This document shows positions 5,445 through 46,770 of a DNA stretch of 48,134 nt, piece by piece. Both the position numbers and the translations under genes were made by a program. The notes below the pieces were generated by a model that was not told where the DNA came from, ran no database searches, and was given only the letters and a program-made list of their open reading frames with translations. The stretch's first letter is position 1, and the number at the start of each line of letters is the position of its first letter. Location of the stretch: assembly GCA_902771735.1 (NCBI GenBank), contig CACXXO010000018.1, positions 1 through 48,134 of the forward strand, read 5' to 3'. This DNA comes from an uncultured Bacteroidota bacterium. GTDB lineage: Bacteria > Bacteroidota > Bacteroidia > Bacteroidales > P3.

Positions 5445-5657
5445 CTACTTCTTTGCCGTCTGGCCAGGATCCATGCGTTCGTAGCTTTCCACACATCCAC
5501 GCTCACCACGGGTCATCGAGTTACAAGGGGTATCACTGTCGACATAGACAACCTGTTCCATGCCATTCTCATAGCAATAGCATAGTTTGGTGTCGCACGA
5601 TGAGCAACAGAGCACTGTGATAACAAATGCAGCGGGGATTATGAGACGTTTCTTCAT
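5445..5657 (-). CDS. Small Cys-rich (CxC) lipoprotein
   Basis: 70-residue predicted lipoprotein. The signal segment ends in CCSSC (lipid Cys probably Cys21), followed by CDTKLCYCY, giving lipid Cys, four residues, then C-x-C. Two later Cys occur in TPCNSM and RGCVESY. The same plan is found in three other small proteins here (36157-36357, 43686-43946, 43943-44185). It lies 15 bases downstream of the GH92 gene on the same strand, so it is probably the last gene of the ROK-GH92 operon. I recognise no named family; the even number of Cys after the lipid anchor suggests disulfides or metal binding. Confidence 0.8.
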   Translation of the reverse strand: MKKRLIIPAAFVITVLCCSSCDTKLCYCYENGMEQVVYVDSDTPCNSMTRGERGCVESYERMDPGQTAKK

Positions 5658-36156: not shown

Positions 36157-36357
36157 ATGAAATATATTAAAATCGCAGGTTCCCTATTGTTGCTGACAAT
36201 GCTACTGGGCTCGTGCCACAAGACCTGCACCTGCACCCGCTACGATGGTGCCATAGTGAACTACAGCGCAGACGAGGTCGACGACCGCGGTACAACATGT
36301 GCCAACATGGTTTTCCAGTCTGGAGTGCGATACTACTCAATATGCGAATGGGATTAA
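36157..36357 (+). CDS. Small Cys-rich (CxC) lipoprotein
   Basis: 66 residues; ATG 36157 preferred over GTG 36145. Lipobox LLGSC (Cys20) is followed by HKTCTCTRYDG, giving C-x3-C-x-C. Later Cys occur in GTTCANM and at the end SICEWD. Same plan as 5445-5657, 43686-43946 and 43943-44185. It lies between hydE and a radical SAM gene in a plus-strand operon. The spacer before it is an AATTAAG simple repeat. Function unknown. Confidence 0.78.
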   Translation: MKYIKIAGSLLLLTMLLGSCHKTCTCTRYDGAIVNYSADEVDDRGTTCANMVFQSGVRYYSICEWD

Positions 36358-42850: not shown

Positions 42851-43696
42851 TCACCTCAGAAACTCGGCCACTTCCTCCTCGTCCACATTGCGCAGATGAT
42901 AGGTCGCCTTCACCTCCTGCCCGTCCATCAGCAACATCAGCGGTCTTGCTCCGTAGGTAATCTCTACCCACAGCGACTCCCCGATATCCGTTGGCTCTAC
43001 ATACACCACACTCTCATCCTTCAAACCGTGTCTTTTCACCATGCTGTCGAGCTTCTTTCTCGCCAATTTGCAATAGGGGCATCTGGGCGTAACAAAAGCC
43101 ACCAGCCTCCTACCCTCTCCCACTCCCATCTTCAACAACGCGCCCTCTTCTCCGGTCGCTGCCTTCAGCGACTCTTCCCCGTAAGGCTCGTCGAAGGGAC
43201 CGAAGCCCCAGCTGTCGGGCACACTCACAACAAACGGCGTCGCCATCAGTAGCACCCCGACAACCACTCCGACCACCGTCTTCCATCTCTTTCTATCACT
43301 TCTGCCGTTTCCATGATAGCCCATCAGCGTCAGCACTATCAGCACACCGTTCTTCAGCAAACTCACTCCTGGGCTCAACTCAACCAGCCGGCCCATGCAC
43401 TCGCACGACTCGTTCCGTCCAATCAAAGCCGCATAGCACAGAAACAGCGAAAAGCCCACCAGTGTCAGCAACGTCGCCGTCCTTGTGCAACGTTTCCACC
43501 ATCCCGTCAGCAGCAGCCCGCCAAGCACCATCTCCCATCCGATGCACAAACGCGCCACCACATAGCTCACGCTCAACGGCAGCCATCCGTAGGAATAAAT
43601 ATAAAGTTCGAAATCGTCGATAGCCACCAATTTGGCCACCGCCGACACACAGAATATCACCCCCACCAGAATCCTCAGCACTATCCTAATCGCCAT
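42851..43696 (-). CDS. MauE/DoxX-like membrane domain fused to a thioredoxin-like domain
   Basis: 281 residues. N-terminal half has four or so membrane helices with the MauE-type motif ESCECMGR (Cys98, Cys100); a further helix lies at about 139-158. The C-terminal part (about 180-281) is a thioredoxin-like domain with active site FVTPRCPYCKLARKKLD (Cys206, Cys209) and RPLMLLMDG near the cis-Pro position. This layout suggests electrons pass through the membrane domain to a periplasmic thioredoxin, as in DsbD- or MauE-linked pathways. It overlaps the upstream Cys-rich lipoprotein gene by 11 bases, so those proteins are plausible substrates; that link is inferred. Confidence 0.83.
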   Translation of the reverse strand: MAIRIVLRILVGVIFCVSAVAKLVAIDDFELYIYSYGWLPLSVSYVVARLCIGWEMVLGGLLLTGWWKRCTRTATLLTLVGFSLFLCYAALIGRNESCECMGRLVELSPGVSLLKNGVLIVLTLMGYHGNGRSDRKRWKTVVGVVVGVLLMATPFVVSVPDSWGFGPFDEPYGEESLKAATGEEGALLKMGVGEGRRLVAFVTPRCPYCKLARKKLDSMVKRHGLKDESVVYVEPTDIGESLWVEITYGARPLMLLMDGQEVKATYHLRNVDEEEVAEFLR

Positions 43697-43946
43697 AATC
43701 GCGACACTTCACCTTGTGCACATCAACCCTTCGAAGCGTCGTTCCTCCCTCCACCGACACATGCTCCTCAAACGCCATCTCGGTGATATTGTCACACGAT
43801 ATTGCGCCATCAAGCACAAACACCATGTTCAACTCCGACACATCGTCGGGGGCATCCACCTTCTCGCACTTGCACTGGTGTTCTTTGCTGCATCCCACCA
43901 GCATCATCACGCTGGCCACCGCCAGCACACTTAACACCTTTTTCAT
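43686..43946 (-). CDS. Small Cys-rich (CxC) lipoprotein
   Basis: 86 residues. Lipobox LVGC (Cys19), then SKEHQCKCEKVD (C-x5-C-x-C), later Cys in GAISCDNITEM and near the end VKCRDYGD. Its ATG overlaps the stop of the preceding lipoprotein gene in ATGA (43943-43946), and its end overlaps the MauE-thioredoxin start. Same family plan as 43943-44185, with low identity outside the Cys, so they are divergent paralogues. Confidence 0.82.
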   Translation of the reverse strand: MKKVLSVLAVASVMMLVGCSKEHQCKCEKVDAPDDVSELNMVFVLDGAISCDNITEMAFEEHVSVEGGTTLRRVDVHKVKCRDYGD

Positions 43947-44185
43947 AAATCTGCGTCAATTTTAAATTCATAATCCGTACACAACAGCGAATCCACTTTC
44001 AGGGAATCGAGTGCCGTGTGGTAGCGAAACAGCTTCAGGTCCTCACAGTTGCCTTTCGTGATAGTGATAATTCTCACCTTCGACGAATGCAACACGGCGC
44101 AGCGACACTTCTTCTCCTTCCCGCAACTCACCGCCCCTATCGTCAGCAGTGCCGCCAGACCCAATAACAAATACTTTTTCTTCAT
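43943..44185 (-). CDS. Small Cys-rich (CxC) lipoprotein
   Basis: 80 residues. Lipobox GAVSC (Cys21), then GKEKKCRCAVL (C-x5-C-x-C), later Cys in KGNCEDLKL and LLCTDYEF. First of three overlapping genes ending with the MauE-thioredoxin fusion, and 23 bases downstream of ftsK, so it may be part of the ftsK transcript. The spacer before it carries an AATTCTTAATTC simple repeat. Function unknown. Confidence 0.82.
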   Translation of the reverse strand: MKKKYLLLGLAALLTIGAVSCGKEKKCRCAVLHSSKVRIITITKGNCEDLKLFRYHTALDSLKVDSLLCTDYEFKIDADL

Positions 44186-44208: not shown

Positions 44209-46770
44209 TCATAACTGCCTCAGCAATTCTTCCAGGCTCACTTCGTCATGCACCAGCACGTCTCTCGGTTTCGAGCCGTTTGAGGGACCGACAATTCCCG
44301 CGGCTTCCAGCTGGTCGATGATTCTGCCGGCCCGGTTGTACCCCAACTGCAACTTGCGCTGGAGGAGCGACGTGCTGCCAAACTGGCTGCTCACCACCAA
44401 CCGTGCTGCATCCTCGAAAAACTCGTCCTTGCTCTTGGCGTCGAATTCCTTGTTCGGCTCCTCGTTTTCATCCAGATACTCCGGCAGTTCGAAACCTTCG
44501 GGATAGCCTCGCTGGTCGCCAATGAACTTCACCAGCTTTTCAATCTCGGGCGTATCGATAAGGGCGCACTGCAATCTTATCATATCCTTGCCGGCCAGCG
44601 AGATGAGCATGTCTCCGCGTCCTATCAGCTGCTGTGCTCCGCCGGTGTCGAGGATGGTCTTCGAGTCGATGCCGCTCGTCACGCGGAAAGCCACGCGAGC
44701 CGGGAAGTTGGCCTTGATGGTGCCGGTGATGATGTTCGTCGTCGGGCGCTGGGTGGCGATAATCAGGTGGATGCCCACGGCACGTGCCAGCTGCGCCAGT
44801 CGCGCTATCGGCAGTTCCACCTCCTTGCCGGCCGTCATGATAAGGTCGCCAAACTCGTCGATAACCACCACGATATACGGCAGATAGCGGTGCCCGTTGT
44901 TGGGATTGAGCATCCGTTTGCAGAACTTTTCGTTATATTCGGTGATTTTCCTCACCTTGGCTTGTTTCAGCAGGTCGTAGCGGCTGTCCATCTCGATGCA
45001 CAGCGAGTTCAGCGTGCGCACCACCTTCTTCACGTCGGTGATCACCCCTTCCTCCTCGTCGGGCATCTTGGCCAGGTAGTGGCGCTCCAAAGCCGAATAG
45101 AGGCTGAACTCCACCTTCTTCGGGTCCACCAGCACCAGTTTCAGCTCGCTGGGATGCTTGGTATAGAGCAAACTCGCCAGCACGGCGTTCAATCCCACCG
45201 ATTTACCTGTGCCCGTGGCTCCGGCCATCAGCAGGTGCGGCATCTTGGCCAGGTCGGTGACGAAACATTCGTTCGAGATGGTCTTTCCGAACGCTATCGG
45301 CAGTTCCATCTTCCCCTTGGCTTTCTCGAAAGCCTCGCTTTCCAGCATCGTCTTCATGGCCACAATCTGCGGCTTGGCGTTCGGCACCTCGATGCCCACA
45401 TTGCTCTCGCCGGGGATGGGGGCGATGATGCGGATACCCAACGCCGCCAGGCTCAGGGCGATATCGTCCTCAAGGTTCTTGATCTTGCTTATCCTCACAC
45501 CCGGGGCGGGCTTGATTTTGTAGAGGGTCACCGTGGGACCCGGAATGGCACTGATGTCGGTAATCTCGATGCCATAGTCCTTCAGCGTCTGCACGATGCG
45601 GTCCTTGTTGGCCACCAGCTCCTCTTTGGTCACCTTGGTGTTGGCCACCTCCCAGTCCTCCAGTATACCCGTCTCGGGCATCACATAGTCGCCCAGGTCC
45701 AAGTGGGGGTCGTAGGGCTCGTCAAGCCCATAGTGGCGACGGTAGTCGTCATCGGCAAGTTCTTCTTCCGCCTCTTCCTGGTCGTCGGTGGTTCCCTGAC
45801 TCTCCGCCTCCGGTTCAACCTCTGCGGCATCCTGGTTTTCCGACGCTTCGTCCATCCCTTCGATGGTAAACGTCACCTCATCGTTCTTTTCCTGTGCTTT
45901 GGCATTTACGCGGGCAAACTCCTCGTCGATGTCAAACTCCACCGTCTCCCCTTCTTGTGGTGCCGGAGTCTCGCCGCCGGCATCAGCCGCTTCGGCTTTA
46001 TCATCCTGGGTGGCGATGGGGTGGGCTTTGAAGAGCTCCATCGCAGCCTCTTCAAACTCGGCGCCCTCGTCTTCTTCCTGCTGTTGCTCGGCAAAGTCGA
46101 TGAAACCCTTCTCCACATTCTTCTCCTTCTTGGCATCCGACGGCTCCTCTTTCTCAATTTCTTCCACCACCTTCTTCAGGTCGACCTTGGGCATGTGGAC
46201 TTCAGGCAGTTCCATCTTGTGAACCATCACGAGCACAGCCACTGCCACTGCCACCAGCAGCACCAGCGTCCACCAGCCCATGAAATTCTCGAGAGGTTCG
46301 GCCAGCATGACACCGATACCGGCATACTGTTCGAACCCCACGCCGTCTTCAATCCACTTGACGGCGATGTAGCCCAGCGTCACGCTCAGCCACGCCATCC
46401 AGAAGACGGTGCTGCCGAAGGTTTTCCACCACGGCATCACGCTCACCTTCCACAGCCTCATGCCGTAGACAAAGAAGAGCAGGGCAAATCCCAGGCTGCC
46501 GATGCCGAAGAGGTTCACGGCGAAAAACTCCGCCGTGGCGAATCCCATGGCCTTGAGCCAGTGGCGCGTGGGGTCGCAACCCGTGGCGTAATAGCTCGCG
46601 AGCGACAGCAGGAGGAAAAAGGCAAACAGCACATACACCGCTCCGCGGATATGCGCGAAACGCTCACTCTTCACAAACGCGACAAAAGCCCCCCAACGGT
46701 TCTTCCTCTTCGGGGTGCTTTTGCCTTTGCCTTTCGGCTTCGATGTCGGTTTCTTCTTTCCTGCTGCCAC
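44209..46770 (-). CDS. ftsK: DNA translocase FtsK
   Basis: 853-residue septal DNA pump that moves and resolves chromosome termini at division. The N terminus is basic (KPTSKPKGKGKSTPKRKNR), followed by about four membrane helices to residue ~190, then an acidic linker (about 200-345). The motor domain has Walker A LLMAGATGTGKSVGLNAVL (about 515), LVLVDPKKVEFSLYSAL, Walker B IVVVIDEFGDLIMT and IIATQRPTTNIITG. The C-terminal gamma domain (FGSTSLLQRKLQLGYNRAG) should read KOPS sites. It follows a DUF4412-like gene by 32 bases. Confidence 0.96.
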   Translation of the reverse strand: MAAGKKKPTSKPKGKGKSTPKRKNRWGAFVAFVKSERFAHIRGAVYVLFAFFLLLSLASYYATGCDPTRHWLKAMGFATAEFFAVNLFGIGSLGFALLFFVYGMRLWKVSVMPWWKTFGSTVFWMAWLSVTLGYIAVKWIEDGVGFEQYAGIGVMLAEPLENFMGWWTLVLLVAVAVAVLVMVHKMELPEVHMPKVDLKKVVEEIEKEEPSDAKKEKNVEKGFIDFAEQQQEEDEGAEFEEAAMELFKAHPIATQDDKAEAADAGGETPAPQEGETVEFDIDEEFARVNAKAQEKNDEVTFTIEGMDEASENQDAAEVEPEAESQGTTDDQEEAEEELADDDYRRHYGLDEPYDPHLDLGDYVMPETGILEDWEVANTKVTKEELVANKDRIVQTLKDYGIEITDISAIPGPTVTLYKIKPAPGVRISKIKNLEDDIALSLAALGIRIIAPIPGESNVGIEVPNAKPQIVAMKTMLESEAFEKAKGKMELPIAFGKTISNECFVTDLAKMPHLLMAGATGTGKSVGLNAVLASLLYTKHPSELKLVLVDPKKVEFSLYSALERHYLAKMPDEEEGVITDVKKVVRTLNSLCIEMDSRYDLLKQAKVRKITEYNEKFCKRMLNPNNGHRYLPYIVVVIDEFGDLIMTAGKEVELPIARLAQLARAVGIHLIIATQRPTTNIITGTIKANFPARVAFRVTSGIDSKTILDTGGAQQLIGRGDMLISLAGKDMIRLQCALIDTPEIEKLVKFIGDQRGYPEGFELPEYLDENEEPNKEFDAKSKDEFFEDAARLVVSSQFGSTSLLQRKLQLGYNRAGRIIDQLEAAGIVGPSNGSKPRDVLVHDEVSLEELLRQL

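Follow-up and report, generated by a model that had tools for sequence, protein, structure and literature searches.

In the mau cluster, a MauE membrane domain is found together with a thioredoxin-like partner, MauD, and with a cysteine-rich exported protein. VKOR-thioredoxin fusions, such as the VKOR homologue 3kp9, consist of a helical membrane domain, a fifth helix and a thioredoxin domain. Proteins of the BT_3928 family (NF045576), which have a MauE domain with a CxC motif, are near universal in Bacteroidales, with matches in 115 of 119 genomes and scores over the family cut-off in 111 of the 119. In the accessible part of one study, disulfide formation in methylamine dehydrogenase is 'speculated' to be the task of MauE, and precursors with at least 8 cysteines have mauE homologues beside them in Streptomyces (PMC7794033). 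Bacteroidetocin loci encode a 4-Cys peptide, a thiol oxidoreductase and a five-TM protein; according to the portion of the report that is available, deletion of either of the two proteins attenuates toxin activity, the authors think that the disulfides of the peptide are made by products of the locus, and peptides made synthetically without disulfide formation are still potent (PMC6671954). The same portion states that general disulfide-formation machinery is absent from Bacteroides (PMC6671954, citing Dutton 2008). Finally, the open part of another report credits the B. fragilis thioredoxin TrxP with both oxidase and reductase activity (PMC6158253).

Here we describe an operon of an uncultured Bacteroidota bacterium (Bacteroidales; P3) that encodes a MauE-thioredoxin fusion behind two small CxC lipoproteins. 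It lies in a stretch of 48,134 nucleotides that we call the window (GCA_902771735.1, contig CACXXO010000018.1, positions 1-48,134), and the features discussed below are the following.

43943..44185, minus strand: LipoB, small lipoprotein of 80 aa, first gene of the unit
43686..43946, minus strand: LipoA, small lipoprotein of 86 aa
42851..43696, minus strand: MauE-thioredoxin fusion, 281 aa
36157..36357, plus strand: LipoC, third CxC lipoprotein, 66 aa (SCHKTCTC...C...C), 6.5 kb from the operon on the opposite strand
44209..46770, minus strand: gene for an FtsK-like DNA translocase that precedes LipoB; shown for context and not counted in the system

Like the mau cluster, this locus combines a MauE membrane domain, a thioredoxin-like partner (here the CPYC domain of the same chain) and a cysteine-rich exported protein. 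It differs from it in that MauE and thioredoxin form one chain and that the partners are small CxC lipoproteins; furthermore, no methylamine dehydrogenase genes were found among the four neighbour genes scanned (one FtsK-like, one PurF-like and two without a match). With bacteroidetocin loci, as they are presented in the available portion of PMC6671954, it shares the setting in Bacteroidales and a small exported 4-Cys protein whose companions are a membrane protein and a thiol oxidoreductase, the five-TM protein being compared by description. Those loci, however, have a double-glycine leader and an ABC peptidase, whereas the signal peptides here carry a lipobox and none of the four neighbours scanned is an ABC peptidase. 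The operon was not found described in the literature searched, in which subscription papers were mostly out of reach and many returns were unrelated. Our results show that it is a real and conserved type of operon built from known parts.

Layout of the operon and its conservation within the genus

The minus-strand gene order is FtsK-like, LipoB, LipoA, MauE-thioredoxin fusion, PurF-like. A preliminary description of this DNA had the two lipoprotein genes overlapping each other by 4 bases and the fusion gene by 11. The first overlap is exact (43943-43946); the second is correct for LipoA (43686-43696), which is the only one of the two to overlap the fusion. The ORFs of LipoA, LipoB and the fusion are under purifying selection, with pN/pS of 0.21-0.40 in 9 comparisons, a range that rules out spurious ORFs. 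Such selection, and the persistence of the operon throughout the genus, show that it is more than a product of chance. Chance pairing of a lipobox with CxC is likewise ruled out by its rarity in control DNA: over 400 kb from other parts of the genome the lipoprotein scan gave one match, which did not resemble a real lipoprotein, and over 126.7 kb of control loci it gave none. In the window, the same scan gave two matches outside the operon, at 36157 (LipoC) and at 5445. The latter (5445..5657, minus strand) is a fourth small CxC lipoprotein, SCDTKLCYCY..., which has a gene of glycosyl hydrolase family 92 as its neighbour and no Pfam match.

Matches at E <= 0.001 were obtained in 117 of 120 genus genomes for the fusion, in 113 for LipoB and in 86 for LipoA, the last count coming from a single-sequence search. 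The matches listed for the fusion cover 114 of these 117 genomes; among them, 112 of the 113 LipoB-bearing genomes have their best fusion match on the strand of LipoB, 243-527 bp downstream of it. Loss of the neighbourhood in relatives had been put forward as the observation that would speak against coupling of these genes; among the matches listed the neighbourhood of LipoB and the fusion is kept in all but one of the LipoB-bearing genus genomes, and a CxC lipoprotein is also close by at 24 of the 57 loci of the order described below. In the sole exception (G003), the LipoB copy is interrupted by an in-frame stop and the fusion is on a different contig. One other genome (G004) has a strong fusion match and no LipoB match.

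In the exceptional genome, which belongs to Candidatus Colimorpha pelethequi (L113/L227, L131), the gene that precedes the fusion encodes another CxC lipoprotein, SCKKQCTCT. LipoA, LipoC and the LipoB copy with the in-frame stop are together on another contig, with no fusion within the 5.5 kb read.

The nearest named match is a Prevotella sp. MAG (L163), at 99% over residues 76-281 of the fusion, and the other named relatives are uncultured, mainly rumen or hindgut Bacteroidales, including Candidatus Colimorpha species. A CxC lipoprotein is found within 900 bp at 77 of 78 named loci, which largely repeat the genus genomes and are hence not independent of the sample of 120. Upstream of LipoB, 75 named loci have FtsK (47), a second gene (8) or others (20); the unit therefore stays together in changing surroundings. 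The overlaps are more variable. With starts assigned by a first-ATG rule, and at the 68 named loci where both lipoproteins score above 50 bits, LipoA overlaps the fusion in 46, is separated from it by 0-30 bp in 8 and by a larger gap in 14, and LipoB overlaps LipoA in only 7. No plasmid relative of the fusion was found at E <= 1e-3.

The fusion protein and its lipoproteins

Residues 5-126 of the fusion match the Pfam MauE domain (PF07291) at 75.4 bits, against a gathering cut-off of 27, and the protein hence belongs to this family. The structural model (pLDDT 93.9, pTM 0.87) has long helices at 2-24, 41-64, 68-91, 109-125 and 137-157, the fifth being followed by a thioredoxin-like domain that starts at about residue 195. 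As first described, CEC is in the MauE domain and CPYC in the thioredoxin-like domain. CEC (C98/C100) lies in the loop between the third and fourth long helices, a position that we take to be a mark of the MauE family. CPYC corresponds to C206/C209; the domain that carries it scores under every Pfam cut-off, yet it is modelled with confidence. These four cysteines are invariant in 47 of 47 fusions, and the other four cysteines of the protein vary. In a set of 15 fusions, 41 columns are invariant, including G249, R251 and P252, presumably the cis-proline loop of the thioredoxin-like domain. The N-terminus and the loops 63-70 and 126-138 are richer in positive charges than the CEC loop and the stretch that follows the fifth helix. 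Applied to the model, the positive-inside rule thus probably places both the CEC loop and the thioredoxin domain in the periplasm. The fusion is best read as a fused MauE/MauD-like thiol oxidoreductase.

The layout of a helical membrane domain, a fifth helix and a thioredoxin domain is that of VKOR-thioredoxin fusions. On the other hand, the VKOR domain (PF07884) is absent from the Pfam matches of the fusion at E up to 1, and 3kp9, the sole whole-length match among the 50 PDB matches listed, aligns over 301 columns with a TM score of only 0.30 and an rmsd of 11.9, too weak for a shared fold; these proteins are thus not supported as true structural relatives. The best PDB matches of the model are thioredoxins (best E 5.2e-3), none of them at E <= 0.001.

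Both lipoproteins show exactly the pattern first reported for them, that is, a lipid-bearing Cys, CxC and two further cysteines: C21, CRC 27-29, C47 and C69 in LipoB, and C19, CKC 25-27, C51 and C81 in LipoA. All five cysteines are invariant in the first alignments (21 of 21 LipoB and 23 of 23 LipoA sequences), C69 of LipoB being merely nearly invariant in a wider set of 42. Conservation outside the cysteines is moderate, with a mean column identity of 43% for LipoB and 36% for LipoA. Profile comparison indicates that the two are paralogues (98.8% probability, E 6.8e-17). No known lipoprotein family could be assigned to either, as Pfam and NCBIfam gave solely weak matches below cut-off, and the LipoC family likewise has no match above cut-off in them. 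Searches of PDB with the LipoB model (pLDDT 81.0, pTM 0.55) gave no convincing fold match (best E 0.72). Because their cysteines are invariant both in the lipoproteins and in the fusion, the sequences suggest that LipoB and LipoA partner with the fusion through them.

The lipoprotein set is larger than the two operon genes that had been reported correctly, LipoC having been missed together with the spread of the system in the order. LipoC-like genes lie directly downstream of the fusion at six loci (L226, L228, L233, L236, L237 and L241), and an alignment of these six with the window copy has matches in 116 of 120 genus genomes at E <= 1e-4, of which the ones with weak E-values may represent CxC lipoproteins of another kind. 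Taking the first match listed in each of 112 of these 116 genomes, 63 have LipoC downstream of the fusion, on its strand and no more than 1.5 kb away, the distance being measured from the fusion match, which stops before the protein end in longer homologues. It is elsewhere on the contig of the fusion in 25 (22 on the opposite strand, and 3 on the strand of the fusion at 1.7-2.2 kb) and on other contigs in 23; one genome has no fusion among the matches listed. Of the 22 with LipoC on the opposite strand, 17, the window's own genome included, have it at 6.4-6.8 kb from the fusion. In the window, the LipoC gene is immediately preceded by a HydE gene and followed by a further radical SAM gene.

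Distribution in the order and phylum

Close MauE-thioredoxin proteins (E <= 1e-20) are present in 59 of 392 genomes of the order, representing 35 of 204 genera. Of 57 such loci outside the genus, 24, from 16 families as counted by hand, carry a small CxC lipoprotein on the same strand no more than 900 bp away, and the other 33 have none; a strict scan had given 22 of 57, and the lipobox was loosened after two missed cases. The lipoproteins found in this position in other families look unlike those of the operon except for the Cys pattern. At two loci (L298 and L300), the MauE-thioredoxin gene is followed by a gene for a small lipoprotein-like protein that is not of the CxC type and has 9-10 cysteines. 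At another (L308), the upstream gene resembles by eye a secreted methionine sulfoxide reductase fusion.

The BT_3928 family served as a control. Its members share with the fusion a MauE domain with CxC and the same phylum. The fusion falls well outside the family, scoring 45.2 bits against a cut-off of 250 over profile positions 2-142 of 358, and the family protein of the window's own genome has a gap where CPYC aligns. No CxC lipoprotein was found, loose scan included, beside any of 31 BT_3928 loci, namely the 30 best-scoring ones and that of the own genome, a set that is not family-matched to the 57.

In a quick tree of 67 sequences, built without a shuffled control and including 10 extra linked loci chosen because they are linked, linked and unlinked states changed at least 9 times, with linked loci on several deep branches. 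This tree is compatible with gain as well as with loss of the lipoprotein linkage. A search of the phylum gave MauE-thioredoxin matches in 27 of 392 genomes. Outside the order, a CxC lipoprotein is linked at one of 26 loci and absent from the other 25, which speaks against a general spread of the lipoprotein coupling beyond the order.

Redox setting and possible function

DsbB was found in none of 60 genus genomes, nor in the window's own genome. VKOR was found in one of the 60 and not in the window's own genome, in which a DsbD-type protein and a BT_3928-family MauE protein are present. With a DsbD-type protein present and the DsbB and VKOR models silent, the organism likely has a reductive route and no DsbB or VKOR detectable by these models. 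The one genome with VKOR (G004; L130, L342, L343) has two copies in long frames and is also the one with a fusion and no LipoB match, a single case.

The combination of a membrane redox protein, a thioredoxin and a small multi-Cys exported protein fits, by analogy, a dedicated disulfide-forming system with clients. We give an even chance to the reading that the products of the operon are a membrane thiol-disulfide oxidoreductase and its dedicated exported lipoprotein clients, which would most likely be given disulfides by the fusion. The MauE domain would sit in the inner membrane with the CEC loop facing the periplasm, and the fifth helix would carry the CPYC domain into the periplasm. Electrons would then pass from the lipoprotein cysteines to CPYC, from there to CEC, and on to a membrane acceptor, for example menaquinone. 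Two disulfides could be closed per small lipoprotein, between CxC and the two further cysteines, soon after export. Such a system would resemble the MauE/MauD pair maturing a cysteine-rich exported protein, here with a single chain and two or three CxC lipoproteins. We infer the direction of oxidation, the quinone acceptor, the client role and the disulfide pairing. In favour of this reading are the gene order kept in differing surroundings, the frequent overlap of LipoA with the fusion, the invariant cysteines, the contrast between 24 of 57 order loci and none of 31 BT_3928 loci, the lack of DsbB and near lack of VKOR matches in the genus, and the mau and bacteroidetocin precedents. Weighing against it are the 33 order loci and the 25 loci beyond the order at which no such lipoprotein was seen, the less strict conservation of C69 in LipoB, the weak match to 3kp9, and the potency of bacteroidetocin peptides made without disulfides.

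That the lipoproteins are coupled to the fusion, as initially proposed, is borne out by the neighbourhood kept in relatives; they may be its substrates or its carriers. As carriers, they would form a tethered thiol relay, with CxC handing on disulfides or electrons from the fusion to other proteins of the envelope or the reverse. This is in line with the position of CxC, which in all three families is only four to six residues away from the lipid anchor, and with the presence of two or three lipoproteins per set, and a lipoprotein carrier could fill a gap in a genus where DsbB was found in none and VKOR in one of 60 genomes. It agrees less well with the moderate conservation outside the cysteines and with the two outer cysteines, whose conservation nearly equals that of CxC, as structural disulfides would lead one to expect. 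Moreover, the lipoproteins that occupy this place in other families are otherwise unlike, which favours clients over a common carrier, and we hence regard a relay as rather unlikely.

The four conserved cysteines, CxC...C...C, could also bind a metal, the fusion keeping or making them reduced for metal loading. DoxX-type HvfX proteins accompany Cys-rich metal-binding peptides and offer an analogy, but the fusion itself fails the cut-off of the NCBIfam HvfX family (16.3 bits against 80) and the four neighbour genes scanned include neither a recognisable metal transporter nor an MNIO enzyme, so that metal handling appears quite improbable. A last reading reverses the electron flow: the fusion would supply electrons to the lipoproteins for repair or activation, in the style of DsbD partners. 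The DsbD-type protein in the window's genome agrees with it, and the putative methionine sulfoxide reductase described above would need a reductant. The latter is a single case, however, and the accessible part of PMC7794033 has MauE of the mau system speculated to form disulfides and not to reduce them; we consider this reading very doubtful. More broadly, the DsbD-type protein, the BT_3928-family MauE protein and B. fragilis TrxP make reduction, or a division of labour between redox proteins, possible.

Extending the disulfide-forming reading with lipoproteins as carriers instead of clients, MauE-thioredoxin proteins and CxC lipoproteins might constitute a disulfide-generating machine of Bacteroidales without DsbB or VKOR, in which the fusion would use membrane quinone without oxygen and lipid-anchored CxC proteins would carry disulfides to other envelope proteins, a speculation that we hold to be unlikely. 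The analysis brings to notice three lipoprotein families without a Pfam or NCBIfam match above cut-off, and the named cysteines of the fusion and of the lipoproteins are available for mutation. The operon is a concrete candidate for envelope disulfide handling in gut anaerobes without DsbB or VKOR matches.
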